A DNA stretch of 64,000 nucleotides from Actinoallomurus soli (GTDB taxonomy: Bacteria > Actinomycetota > Actinomycetes > Streptosporangiales > Streptosporangiaceae), in the NCBI RefSeq assembly GCF_024055715.1, contig NZ_JAMXMV010000015.1, positions 1 to 64,000 of the forward strand, written 5' to 3'. The notes beneath the pieces were generated by a model, which saw nothing but the letters and a program-made list of their open reading frames with translations, made no database searches and had not been told where the DNA came from. Within the stretch, counting starts at the first letter, position 1; each line of letters begins with the position of its first letter. Made by a program: the position numbers and the translations under genes. Positions 4,874 through 53,714 of the stretch are shown here, piece by piece.

Positions 4874-5238
4874 GCGGCAGGCCCACGGACGCGCGAGCCC
4901 CCACCACCTTCCCGGTCGGAAACCTTGCTCTGCGACAACCGTCCCTCAAGTGAGATATAAGAGCAAATCCCGGTCTGTGTACTGCCACGCTAATCGCTCG
5001 CCGCCCGTGCCCTGTCCAGGAGCGCGGCCGCACGCGCCTCCTCGTCGGCGCCCACCCGCTCGCGCCGCCCTCCGCCGCCCCCGCCACGGCCGCCCGGCCC
5101 CCGCCCCGCGGTCTGGGCTACAGGAAGTTCGCAAGTCATTCGACTTATGGACGTTCCGCCACGATCTGGGACATTGGCATCGTTGGACCCACATCGCTCG
5201 CCGATCCCCCCCTGCCCCTGCGTACCAGAGGAGCCCCC
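4874..5238. other. Divergent intergenic region between phosphatase and TDT transporter
   Basis: 365 bp without a convincing gene. The middle (about 5000-5110) is very GC-rich and has open frames only because of composition. Towards the transporter there is AAGTCATTCGACTT (5133-5146), a 5-bp-arm inverted repeat that may be an operator. Promoters for both divergent genes must lie here; I cannot define their elements. Confidence 0.5.
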
Positions 5239-6255
5239 ATGGCCGCCGACGAGGCCGAGAAGACCGAGGCCCCCGCGGTCCGACGAGTTCCGCTGAACCT
5301 GTTCGGCATGGCGTTCGGCATCGCGGGGCTGGCGGGCACCTGGCTGACCGTCGCGCGCTACGGTCACGCCCCACTGTGGGCAGGACGGGCACTGCTGGCC
5401 GTCTCGGCGGTCGTCTGGGCGGTCACGGTGGCGCGCTACGCGCGGTACGCGCTGTCGGTACGCGGCGCGTTCGCCACCGACCTGACCGATCCCGTCGCCG
5501 CGCCCTTCGCCGCCCTCGCCGTGATCACTCCGATGCCGGCGGCGTCGCAGGGCCTCTACGCGTACGACTCGACCGCCGGAACCGTCGTCTTCGACGTGTT
5601 CCTGGTGCTGACGGTGCTGCTCGGCGGCTGGATGACCGGCCAGTGGATCTACGGGTCACTCAGCCTCGACCAGCTCCATCCGGGGTACTTCCTGCCGACC
5701 GTGGCGGGCGGCCTGGTCGCGGCGGCCGGTGCCGCCGCGGTCGGGCAGCGGACGCTGGGCTACGCCATGCTCGGCCTCGGGCTGATCTGCTGGTTCATCC
5801 TCGGCTCGATGATCATGGCCCGGCTGTTCTTCCGCCCCGCGCTGCCGCCGGCCCTCTATCCGACCCTGGCGATCGAGGTCGCGCCCGCGGCCGTGGCGAC
5901 CGTCGCCTACGTCTCGCTGCGCGGCCCCCACGTGGACGCCTTCAGCGCGATCCTCGCCGGATACGGCACGCTGATGGTGCTCGCGCAGCTGCGGCTGCTG
6001 CCCGCCTTCACGCGGCTGCGGTTCGCCCCGGGCTTCTGGGCGTTCACCTTCTCCTGGGCCGCGGTCGCCACCAGCGTCGTGCACTGGACGCAGATCCTCC
6101 GCCCGACCGGGTACCTCGTCTACACCTACGCCGCGCTCGCCGCGGCCACCCTTCTGATCGCCGGCATCGCCGTACGTACCGTGCCGGCCACCTTCTCGCG
6201 GGGCGGTGTCCGCACCGGGCCTCCCCATACGACCCCCGCCCCGGAAGAACACTGA
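5239..6255 (+). CDS. TDT/SLAC1-family membrane transporter (TehA/Mae1-like)
   Basis: 338 aa integral membrane protein with about ten hydrophobic segments and a short charged N terminus rich in Glu/Lys. Spacing of the helices and motifs such as NLFGMAFGIAGLAGTW at the start of helix 1 and FWAFTFSWAAVAT in a late helix match the tellurite-resistance/dicarboxylate transporter (TDT) family, which includes anion channels and C4-dicarboxylate or sulfite exporters. Substrate cannot be assigned. A GAGGAG ribosome-binding site precedes the ATG. The hydrolase gene starts 12 bp after the stop, so the two form an operon closed by a strong terminator. Confidence 0.85.
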   Translation: MAADEAEKTEAPAVRRVPLNLFGMAFGIAGLAGTWLTVARYGHAPLWAGRALLAVSAVVWAVTVARYARYALSVRGAFATDLTDPVAAPFAALAVITPMPAASQGLYAYDSTAGTVVFDVFLVLTVLLGGWMTGQWIYGSLSLDQLHPGYFLPTVAGGLVAAAGAAAVGQRTLGYAMLGLGLICWFILGSMIMARLFFRPALPPALYPTLAIEVAPAAVATVAYVSLRGPHVDAFSAILAGYGTLMVLAQLRLLPAFTRLRFAPGFWAFTFSWAAVATSVVHWTQILRPTGYLVYTYAALAAATLLIAGIAVRTVPATFSRGGVRTGPPHTTPAPEEH

Positions 6256-6267
6256 GAGGAATCCTCG

Positions 6268-7089
6268 ATGCCCACCATCACCACCGCCGACGGCACGCGC
6301 ATCTTCTACAAGGACTGGGGCAGCGGGCGGCCCGTCGTGTTCAGTCACGGCTGGCCGCTGAACGCCGACGCCTGGGACGAGCAGCTGCGCCTCCTCGCCG
6401 AGAACGGCTACCGCGCCATCGCCCACGACCGCCGCGGGCACGGCCGCTCCGACCAGCCCTGGACCGGCAACGACATGGACACCTACGCCGACGACCTGGC
6501 CGCCCTCATCGAGCACCTGGACCTGCGGGACGCCATCCTGGTCGGCCACTCCACCGGCGGCGGCGAGGTCACCCGCTACCTCGGCCGCCACGGCAGCGCC
6601 CGCGTCGCCAAGGCCGTCCTGCTGGGCGCCGTCCCGCCGGTGATGGTGCGGAGCGAGAAGAACCCCGAGGGCACCCCCATCGAGGCGTTCGACGGCATCC
6701 GCGCCGGGGTGGACGGCGACCGCTCCCAGTTCTACTGGGACCTCAGCGAGAGCTTCTACGGCTTCAACCGTCCCGGGGCGGCCGTCTCCGAAGGCGCCCG
6801 CCGCGCCTTCTGGCTCTGGAGCATGCAGGTGGGCGTCAAGGCCGCCTACGACTGCGTCGAGCAGTTCTCCGAGACCGACTTCACCGAGGACCTCACGGGC
6901 ATCGACATCCCCGTCCTGGTCGCCCACGGCGACGACGACCAGATCGTCCCCATCCAGGACGCCGCCCTCAAGACCGCCGAACTGCTCAAGGACGCGACCC
7001 TGAAGGTCTACCCCGGCGCGCCCCACGGCCTGTACGGCGACTTCCGCGCCGCGTTCGAGAAGGACCTCCTGGAGTTCATCCGCGCCTGA
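6268..7089 (+). CDS. Alpha/beta hydrolase, non-haem chloroperoxidase/esterase type
   Basis: 273 aa, the usual length for the cofactor-free haloperoxidase/arylesterase group. The nucleophile elbow is GHSTGGGEV (Ser near residue 98), preceded by the oxyanion segment [11 protein letters not shown]. The catalytic acid should be the Asp of [11 protein letters not shown] and the base the His of [10 protein letters not shown] near the C terminus. Members hydrolyse esters and can form peracids in vitro; the physiological substrate is usually unknown. GAGAGGA lies a few bases before the ATG. The gene follows the TDT transporter in one transcription unit; a functional link is not evident. Confidence 0.9.
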
Positions 7090-51217: not shown

Positions 51218-51790
51218 TGCTCGGCCGGCGCGAAGGAACTGGCCGCTCGCTGGCGGATTCGTACAGCGGGCGAGATCTTCCCTCCGACCGTACGGAACGC
51301 GTCCGGTCTGCAGCCCGCGTACCGGATCGGAATCGCCCAGCCCGCCGCCTGCACGGAGGCGCTCGACGCGCAGGTCGCCCGGGCGTTCATCGCGCAGGGC
51401 TGCCGCGTCGTCCTCCGGGCGACGTACACCGACGCGACCCGCACACTCCTCACGACGGTCGGGGCGGTGGTCATGCCGGACGAGGACAAGGCCGAGACCG
51501 CGATCGAGGCGTTGTCCTCAGGCGGCCACGGACGATACGCGCTTCGGGTGGTGTCGTTCCCGGACACCGTGGCGGCCGACTGGGACGACGCCCGGCGGCA
51601 GTTCACGGCCTACCGGTCCGGCCCCACGCCTTACGTCACCGTGCAGGTCAGCGGATGGGTCGACGGGAGGACGATGCCCGAGACCGCCGACAAGGAGCGG
51701 TTCAGGTTCGCCGACACCGTTCTGGATCACCTGTCGGATGTCTTCGTCCAGGCGGACGACCCGTGCAAGGCGCGGGATGTCCGATGCTGA
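51218..51790 (+). pseudogene. 5'-decayed partner gene of the mycosin-like protein
   Basis: An open frame after TAG 51158-51160 reads as protein from about 51230 (KELAARWRIRTAGEIFPPTV, YRIGIAQPAACTEALDAQV, VVLRATYTDATRTLLTTVGA) to TGA 51788-51790. It contains no ATG, and no GTG before 51467, which lies in the middle of the domain; a signal peptide or lipobox that one would expect is missing. So the gene has lost its 5' end or is frameshifted there, unless a rare start such as CTG 51239 is used. Similar proteins, as I recall, precede mycosin-like genes in other actinomycetes. The stop overlaps the subtilase start by 7 nt. Confidence 0.55.
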
Positions 51791-52986
51791 CCGGCCACCG
51801 GATGAGCCGGCGGAGCCGCCGGCTCATCGGACTCACGCTGGCGAGCCTGGTCCTCGCGGCCGCGAGCGCGCCGCGGCCGGCCCACGCGGACCCGGACGAT
51901 CTGCAGATACGCCTCATGGCCGAGACGCTGCTGGCCCAGGACATCACCAAAGGCCACGGTGTCACCGTGGCGGTGCTGAGTACGGGGGTCGATCCGCACA
52001 CGCACCCGAGGTCCGGCACGCTCCGGCCGGGAACGGACCTCGTCGGCCTGCCGCATCCGAAACGGCTCGAGGGCACGCTGATCGCCTCGTTCCTCGGCGG
52101 CAGCCGCCTGTCGTCGGATCTGCCCGGGCTGGCCCCCGCCGTCGACATCCTGCCCGTCCGGATAGCACCGGATGACGGCGAGCACGGGGCGGACGACTGG
52201 TGGGGCGGCGGCCGCGTCTGTGACACCCTCGCGCGGGGCATCCGGTATGCCGCCGACCACGGCGCCGGCGTGGTGCTCGTCAGCGCCGGCTGCTGGGGTT
52301 ACGACTATGAGCAGAAGCAGATGGAGGCGGCGCTGGACCGGGCCTGGAGCAGGAACGTCGTGGTGGTGGCCCCGAACGAGCCGGTCGGCGATGGGAATGC
52401 GCCGCCGTTGCCGGCCGCCGTACCGGGCGTCATCGGTGTCGGCACGCTCGCGAAGGACGGCACCCGGTGGCCGAAGTACTCCCTCAAGAGCAGTGTCACC
52501 CTGGTGTCCGCGCCCGGCGTGCGGACTCCCGGCGTCGGGCCGGGAGGGCAGCCCGGGTGGGCGTTCTGGGGAGTTCCACCCGCCGTGGCGTGGGTGGCGG
52601 CCACCGCCGCGCTGGTGCGATCGGAGTTCCCGCGTCTAACGCCGGCCCAGGTGGCCCAGGTGATGGCGGTCTCCGCTCACCACCCGAAGAACGGATACAA
52701 CCCCGATATCGGATTCGGTGTCGTCAACCCTCTGCAGGCGCTCATCGCGGCCAAGAAAATCGAAGGGCGGCCGGTCCCCCTGACCGCGCCCGGGGTCCGC
52801 GACGGCGCACACTTCGGCCGCCCGGGGACGATCGGCGCCGTACGGCACGATCCCGCCCTGCTGGCCGGTCTCGGCGGTCTCATCCTGGTGAGCGTCGGCG
52901 CGCTCGTCGCCGCCGTGGTCCGGTTGCGCGGCGGCCGTCGTACCGGCGAGGCCGGAGCGTCTTATCCCTGGACCTCCGCGACCTGA
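51784..52986 (+). CDS. Mycosin-like S8 subtilase with all catalytic residues replaced
   Basis: 400 aa. Signal peptide (about 1-36, ending AHAD), a subtilisin-like domain (about 38-330) and a C-terminal transmembrane helix (about 360-383: LAGLGGLILVSVGALVAAVV) give the mycosin layout, anchored outside the membrane. Alignment by eye to subtilase motifs: V-I-D-T-G is VLSTG (Ser66 for Asp), H-G-T is EGT (Glu96 for His), G-T-S-x-A is GVPPA (Pro265 for Ser). The oxyanion-hole Asn region (VVVAPNEPVG) is kept. The frame is intact, so this looks like a maintained pseudoprotease rather than a dead gene. No ESX genes are adjacent. Confidence 0.85.
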   Translation: MLTGHRMSRRSRRLIGLTLASLVLAAASAPRPAHADPDDLQIRLMAETLLAQDITKGHGVTVAVLSTGVDPHTHPRSGTLRPGTDLVGLPHPKRLEGTLIASFLGGSRLSSDLPGLAPAVDILPVRIAPDDGEHGADDWWGGGRVCDTLARGIRYAADHGAGVVLVSAGCWGYDYEQKQMEAALDRAWSRNVVVVAPNEPVGDGNAPPLPAAVPGVIGVGTLAKDGTRWPKYSLKSSVTLVSAPGVRTPGVGPGGQPGWAFWGVPPAVAWVAATAALVRSEFPRLTPAQVAQVMAVSAHHPKNGYNPDIGFGVVNPLQALIAAKKIEGRPVPLTAPGVRDGAHFGRPGTIGAVRHDPALLAGLGGLILVSVGALVAAVVRLRGGRRTGEAGASYPWTSAT

Positions 52987-53129: not shown

Positions 53130-53714
53130 ATGCCGTTCCGTATCCTCGCCCCCGCCCTCATCGGTGCCGGCACACTCGCTCTCTCCGTCGCCGCGATCCC
53201 CGCCGCCGACGCGTCGGCCGCGACCGCTCCCCAGCGCGCCGCCCTGGCCACGACCACCCTGTACTACGACGACAGCCAGGCCGCGGAGTTCAAGAGCGCC
53301 GTGGTCGCCGGCGCGCAGGTGTGGAACTCCAACGTCCACAACGTCCGGCTGGTCGAGGCCACCCCCGGCACGACCGCCCAGATCCGGGTCATCGCCTTCG
53401 ACGGATGGCCGCAGTCGACGCTCGGTCCGGTACGGCCCGGCGGGCGCGGCACGGTCTACTTCGGCCGCGAGGCGGTCGACGAGGGGTACAACACGACGCG
53501 CATCGCCGCTCATGAGCTCGGCCACATCCTCGGGCTTCCGGACGCGAAGCCCGGCCCGTGCTCGTCCCTCATGTCGGGTTCGACCGGTGGCGTCTCGTGC
53601 ACCAACGCCACGCCGAACGCCTCGGAGCGCGCCGCCGTCGAGACGAACTACGGCGGCTCGGCGGTCACCGCGGCGCAGCCCTTCGCGGGCGGGCCCGTGA
53701 CGGACGCCCCGTGA
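53130..53714 (+). CDS. Snapalysin-family (M7) secreted zinc protease
   Basis: 194 aa. Signal peptide about 1-30 (ASAAT), then a small metzincin: the zinc motif is HELGHILGLPD, i.e. HExxHxxGxxD in which Asp is the third ligand, diagnostic for snapalysins. SSLMSGSTGGVSC follows and supplies the Met-turn. These are the smallest known secreted metalloproteases of Streptomyces. The LysR-type activator often beside snpA is not present. GAGGAAGG precedes the ATG. Confidence 0.93.
   Translation: MPFRILAPALIGAGTLALSVAAIPAADASAATAPQRAALATTTLYYDDSQAAEFKSAVVAGAQVWNSNVHNVRLVEATPGTTAQIRVIAFDGWPQSTLGPVRPGGRGTVYFGREAVDEGYNTTRIAAHELGHILGLPDAKPGPCSSLMSGSTGGVSCTNATPNASERAAVETNYGGSAVTAAQPFAGGPVTDAP

Follow-up and report, generated by a model that had tools for sequence, protein, structure and literature searches.

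A catalytically dead mycosin-like subtilase of Actinoallomurus soli and its relatives in a two-gene membrane module of the Streptosporangiales

The locus and the replaced active site

The window analysed here, a stretch of 64,000 nucleotides, lies on contig C6 of the Actinoallomurus soli genome (9.4 Mb in 60 contigs) and contains on its forward strand an open frame whose translation reads as a mycosin-like subtilase, overlapped at its start by the remnant of a gene that in most relatives codes for a membrane partner. Genes were called with a codon-score script, their start codons being uncertain, and neighbouring genes were named from their translations. The features that matter for the following account are these:

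51221..51790, + strand: partner remnant, extracytoplasmic domain only (positions 56-247 of the 247 in the partner profile)
51784..51790, + strand: ATGCTGA, 7 nt in which the pseudo-mycosin start overlaps the stop of the partner, read from the sequence
51784..52986, + strand: pseudo-mycosin, a catalytically dead subtilase of 400 aa (TIGR03921 and PF00082 profiles, tree)
51979..51981, + strand: codon of Ser66, in the catalytic Asp column (alignment with intact relatives)
52069..52071, + strand: codon of Glu96, in the catalytic His column (same alignment)
52381..52383, + strand: codon of Pro200, in the oxyanion-hole Asn column (same alignment)
52576..52578, + strand: codon of Pro265, in the catalytic Ser column (same alignment)

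Alignment and tblastn comparison of the window protein with mycosins possessing an intact triad place S66, E96 and P265 in the columns of the catalytic Asp, His and Ser. The corresponding motifs of the solved AK.1 protease (1dbi) pair with the same three residues in a phmmer alignment, while that to MycP1 (4j94) concurs at the Asp and His positions and has a gap opposite the Ser motif. The replacement of all three catalytic residues in a clean frame, which the initial annotation had read from the letters of the window, is thus borne out by both the intact mycosins and 1dbi, with the frame open over its 400 aa. It had further stated that the oxyanion Asn remains, and this has to be corrected: the column in question, which in the 47 intact relatives is Asn (44) or Asp (3), holds Pro200, and the Asn noticed earlier is the nearby residue 198. 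The window protein accordingly has neither the triad nor the oxyanion Asn that characterize a catalytic S8 peptidase. It matches the PF00082 (Peptidase_S8) profile over positions 1-287 of 288 with 48.5 bits, against a gathering cut-off of 21.8, and its top NCBIfam model is TIGR03921 (193.2 bits, E 6.6e-57), whose equivalog cut-off of 278.75 it does not reach; two intact module mycosins of another genome (G019) also miss that cut-off, with 247.9 and 259.8 bits. An N-terminal signal-like segment and a C-terminal hydrophobic segment can be read by eye in the translation. A search for plasmid DNA similarity gave no match for the window.

Dead relatives, their tree and their membrane partner

We then examined the distribution of related proteins. 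Another genome of the genus (G007) carries an orthologue that is 68% identical and has A/E/Q in the triad columns, and a third (G001) has a more distant dead copy with A/S/P. Further dead copies occur in G291, G292 and G293. Across the GTDB family of the window, matches at E up to 1e-30 were recovered in 244 of 341 genomes, the triad being read in the fetched loci only; among the best-scoring 27 further loci (L041-L067), it is broken at the best match in 19 and intact in 8. A scan of named genomes with one peptide pattern, the counts of which represent a sample, yielded at least 79 loci, at least 18 of them with a broken-triad mycosin, three of these 18 probably lying on the same contigs as G019, G021 and G206. 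A class-level search at E up to 1e-42, a threshold that also misses weaker dead copies within the family, found matches in 4 of 394 genomes, namely that of the window and three others from its family. Partial second mycosins, cut by the end of the locus, have a changed His column in several genomes and keep both Asp and His in three other loci.

The relationships of these proteins were inferred from an unrooted maximum-likelihood tree of 84 rows, from which nine columns around each catalytic position were omitted. Its rows were obtained from 231 aligned sequences by dropping those that were identical or shorter than 300 aa (leaving 198) and those more than 93% alike (leaving 184), followed by selection by hand; the copies of G291-G293 and the partial second mycosins stand outside it. 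On one side of a single branch lie 26 dead rows including the window copy (clade A; ultrafast bootstrap/SH-aLRT support 100/100), within which the window copy is sister to that of G007, again at 100/100. The other 11 dead rows, from Microbispora, Sphaerimonospora, Herbidospora, Acrocarpospora and NEAU-GS5, constitute clade B (100/99); it is joined in the tree by the second mycosins of Nonomuraea, Streptosporangium, Planomonospora and Sphaerisporangium, which are intact. A single origin of all 37 dead rows is rejected (log-likelihood lower by 81, p-AU 2.45e-17); the p value is indicative, as the two groups had been defined on an earlier tree. Judged from these sequences, catalysis has been lost independently in clades A and B, that is, at least twice. 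The phylogeny with a reading of the three positions in orthologues, originally suggested as a check on the window copy, hence returns a fully supported dead clade that includes the A/E/Q orthologue. As the triad changes recur across the relatives in clade A, a chance loss is very unlikely, and a misread frame is likewise ruled out by relatives with the same losses. A subtilase in G006 (L037) with Asp and His present and Gly in the Ser column falls outside both dead clades and possibly represents a further loss; we excluded this D/H/G protein from the dead set because it is placed among other subtilases.

In one alignment of the 26 clade-A rows, some of which are near copies, 23 are changed at all three triad residues, the exceptions being G016, which retains His, and G019 and one copy of G208, which retain Ser. 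The Asp column contains Gly (10), Ser (9) or Ala (7), while the His and Ser columns contain 14 and 12 residue types respectively, retained catalytic residues counted. With no fixed substitute in the His, Ser or oxyanion columns, the active site of clade A drifts, except for the small residue in place of Asp. In clade B, all 11 rows have lost His and Ser, and a single one, from Microbispora sp. H11081, retains Asp. Comparison with an intact set of 47 partner-linked mycosin rows reveals 29 columns conserved (at least 85%) with the identical residue in dead and intact sets, and loss of the Asp, His, Ser and oxyanion columns in the dead set. Columns conserved in the intact set only include those beside the Ser and the oxyanion Asn, and further ones that presumably line the substrate cleft.

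The partner is a short protein in which a single hydrophobic segment, recognized by eye, is combined with an extracytoplasmic domain. Of the conserved cysteines in this domain, C118 and C135 are invariant and C260 and C267 near-invariant (alignment A3, first-row numbering). Counted without deduplication of rows, 36 of 40 dead mycosins and 125 of 138 intact ones have a match to the partner profile immediately upstream, and the two genes overlap by 7 nt in 31 of the 36 dead and 59 of the 125 intact partner-linked cases. In 34 of the 40 dead cases, a single open frame that has a start covers the profile. The six without a whole partner include G007 and G017, where it is broken, G267, which has no standard partner start within the stretch checked, and a fused copy described below; two of the three tandem dead copies of G208 are without a partner of their own. 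The usual locus, near moeZ-, MGMT- and UvrD-like genes, presents one or two intact-mycosin modules followed by the dead one. Of 20 clade-A contexts (L039, L040, L068-L085), 13 include an intact mycosin in the fetched stretch, as do 16 of the 18 broken-triad loci among the scan matches listed; the other 7 contexts, and the window, show none in the stretch that was fetched, indicating that the pair is not obligatory in cis. Nor is the dead module always the last, as in G208 an intact copy follows three tandem dead mycosins.

Two natural gene fusions, each seen once, link the components of this module. In MAG JOPF361 (L153:214-2112, near a contig start) partner and mycosin form a single polypeptide, the mycosin part of which reads D/E/A and so retains Asp. 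In G208 (L077:7175-9007) the gene directly upstream of the three tandem dead mycosins encodes a Ser/Thr kinase (PF00069, E 9.3e-42) that carries the partner domain at its C-terminus; the extracytoplasmic domain of this protein has a match in 256 of 338 family genomes at E up to 1e-20. Members of the partner family weakly resemble PknH_C: 16 of 65 reach E 0.1 or lower, the best of them 5.5e-5, and scores are under the Pfam cut-off in the partner proteins examined singly. A profile search for a solved relative of the partner family gave a single hit, a designed protein at E 0.26. Two distant relatives of its extracytoplasmic domain lie on contig C44 of the A. soli genome (L187:4175-4972 and 5194-6600), among ribosomal protein-like and truA-like genes; in mycobacteria, ESX-4 is found at a comparable ribosomal protein/truA location.

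Purifying selection and the orphaned window copy

Pairwise codon models were used to assess the constraint on these genes. Between the window pseudo-mycosin and that of G007 (L039:8818-10020), both open and aligned over 398 codons with 4 gap columns, omega is 0.171 (dN 0.206, dS 1.21), with a likelihood-ratio statistic of 124 versus omega 1. The shared part of the partner gives an omega of 0.207 (statistic 25.9, dS 1.08), and ten syntenic neighbour genes give omega values of 0.031-0.173 with dS of 0.42-0.82 and 81-96% identity, so that both pseudo-mycosin and partner remnant lie above their neighbours in synonymous divergence. Since the broken partner has a nearly equal omega, the value for the pseudo-mycosin may mostly reflect the time before breakage, and the 0.21 of the remnant means that this test cannot show selection since the partner broke. 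Nine further dead pairs have omega values of 0.031-0.251, all with statistics above 43 versus omega 1, compared with 0.051-0.149 in nine intact pairs, several dS values being saturated. Thus, the ten dead gene pairs are under purifying selection, and the dN/dS check proposed at the outset yields omega of 0.03-0.25 across these pairs. Constraint on the dead gene is weaker in two matched Microbispora pairs (0.18 versus 0.07-0.11 for the intact gene), alike for dead and intact genes in two Herbidospora pairs (0.05-0.08) and equal in G048/G049 (0.12).

The window copy departs from the pattern of its clade in that it has no intact membrane partner directly upstream: the remnant is missing the membrane segment and has no standard start codon before profile position 56, the first ATG/GTG/TTG in frame being at 51467. 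The partner of G007 keeps the membrane segment but is divided between two frames and lacks about 45 profile positions; as each retains what the other lost, the two lesions are probably independent. The window copy is also situated away from the usual locus, between SDR-like and small metalloprotease-like genes in an order common to G007, while the moeZ-like/MGMT-like locus of the same genome (contig C3, L188) holds one intact partner with an active mycosin. The metalloprotease-like gene (53130-53714 in the window), which adjoins the pseudo-mycosin in G007 too, codes for a small secreted-looking protein with the zinc-metalloprotease-like motif HELGHILGLPD. At 10 of 56 columns conserved in the clade the window copy deviates, eight of these deviations being common to G007 and two private, and five of the 26 clade-A rows deviate at more. 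We regard the window copy as an orphaned member of its family, which either works without that partner or stands at the onset of decay.

Proposed non-catalytic role and its alternatives

A fold under selection, an active site left to drift and a conserved membrane partner together argue for a binding or structural role. We propose, with a probability of about 0.55, that the dead mycosin is anchored in the membrane as a non-proteolytic subunit on the extracytoplasmic side, where it acts through its partner, through neighbouring active mycosins or through both. On this proposal, the pseudo-mycosin would be a secreted, membrane-anchored subtilisin fold that no longer cuts peptide bonds. In the relatives, it would be made from the two-gene module together with the bitopic partner, which bears the cysteine-containing extracytoplasmic domain. 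The dead fold would dock on that domain, perhaps also on a neighbouring active mycosin, and serve as a structural or regulatory subunit of the resulting complex outside the membrane, which perhaps controls or stabilizes neighbouring active mycosins. Of this scheme, we infer the physical binding, the regulation of the active mycosin and the location outside the membrane. The broken partners of the window, G007 and G017 imply that docking is dispensable or that these particular copies are decaying. A selected, non-proteolytic extracytoplasmic role, as the initial annotation had surmised, is well supported for the family on account of its two dead clades, purifying selection and conserved membrane partner. 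For the window copy it is weaker: the omega of 0.17 relative to G007 speaks for it, but its partner is truncated and that of G007 is broken in a different way.

This raises the possibility, which we consider distinctly the lesser one, that the window copy is a recently orphaned remnant heading for decay in a family that is functional as a whole. The differing lesions of the two partners, the position outside the locus where the genome keeps an intact partner with an active mycosin, the divergence from G007 (dS 1.21 against 0.42-0.82 and identity 68% against 81-96% for ten neighbours) and the ten deviating columns (five clade-A rows deviate at more) are all consistent with such a fate. Yet the frame is open in both species, its 398 aligned codons being accompanied by only 4 gap columns, the likelihood-ratio statistic of 124 favours constraint, and all but two of the deviations were already common to G007. 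A somewhat more doubtful idea, itself a sub-case of the subunit role, is that dead mycosin and partner form an extracytoplasmic sensor with inward signalling, analogous to a receptor kinase or to the Csp proteins. It draws on the kinase fusion upstream of the three tandem dead mycosins, the weak PknH_C similarity of the partner and the precedent of the CspC and CspA pseudoproteases, which an excerpt of PMC12880746 describes as transducing germinant signals; against it, the fusion is found in one genome, the other 26 partners examined are proteins of 212-324 aa without a visible kinase domain, and PknH_C scores of single partners stay below the Pfam cut-off.

Two remaining alternatives appear much less probable. 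The protein could cap a type VII secretion system (T7SS) as a structural component, non-catalytic in the way recorded for intact mycosins: MycP is reported to be essential although secretion does not require MycP1 to be active as a protease (PMC5082899), and a MycP5 trimer caps and stabilizes ESX-5 (PMC8131196). This genome does have two EccB genes, but contigs C2 and C33, not the C6 of the window, carry them, and both have their own S8 proteins close by; inspection by eye of the genes called near the window copy and near the module locus revealed no T7SS component, and the score is under the TIGR03921 equivalog cut-off. We rejected T7SS membership on this neighbourhood and score, leaving the cap improbable. 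Least credible of all is that the protein retains hydrolase activity through a re-wired active site. An Asp one residue past the lost catalytic Asp is present in 13 of the 26 clade-A rows and could be seen as a substitute, but the window protein has Thr67 in its place and the His, Ser and oxyanion columns of the clade lack a fixed replacement.

Combining these strands, we tentatively picture an extracytoplasmic complex in which the dead mycosin works with its PknH_C-like membrane partner and which has a sensing or controlling function over adjacent active mycosins and, in one lineage, over a Ser/Thr kinase. The dead subunit would have arisen at least twice in the Streptosporangiales from tandem, non-T7SS, partner-linked mycosins; this fuller picture is considerably less secure than the subunit role itself.

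Among characterized systems, the window protein resembles the MycP mycosins of ESX systems (TIGR03921; MycP1 and MycP5) in its subtilisin fold, the signal-like and C-terminal hydrophobic segments visible by eye and its best NCBIfam family; for MycP, a non-catalytic role in ESX complexes is on record. Unlike MycP, it is without triad and oxyanion Asn, scores under the curated cut-off and has no ESX cluster recognizable by eye around its gene, while its relatives are tied to a different membrane partner. The term mycosin-like, as first applied, is apt for the sequence, but no type VII secretion context was recognized. A survey that includes the Streptosporangiales (PMC4791881) describes ESX-4 clusters there in its available part. 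The CspA and CspC proteins of Clostridioides difficile (NF040808, NF040809) similarly combine an S8 fold with the absence of a working triad, and excerpts of PMC12880746 and PMC6199464 describe an active paralogue, CspB, and a non-proteolytic signalling role. They are soluble according to an excerpt of the former, and the window protein has no match to the CspC and CspBA models at E up to 1. The intact partner-linked mycosins of the Streptosporangiales share the two-gene module, a homologous partner and often the locus, and differ in their intact Asp, His and Ser. Open-licence PubMed Central literature yielded no description of the two-gene membrane module, and titles and opening parts of abstracts there on mycosins and subtilase pseudoproteases none of catalytically dead mycosins. 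Subtilase pseudoproteases and non-catalytic roles of mycosins are already known; what is new is the recurrence of dead mycosins in a non-T7SS two-gene module.

On its own the window copy would be of low interest, which its family raises to moderate. Among the genes that S8 profiles match in these actinomycetes are some whose products cannot act as conventional peptidases, and the dead mycosins point to a two-gene membrane module. As natural dead mycosins, often beside intact paralogues, they separate a non-catalytic job from catalysis in a way that can be tested without constructing mutants.
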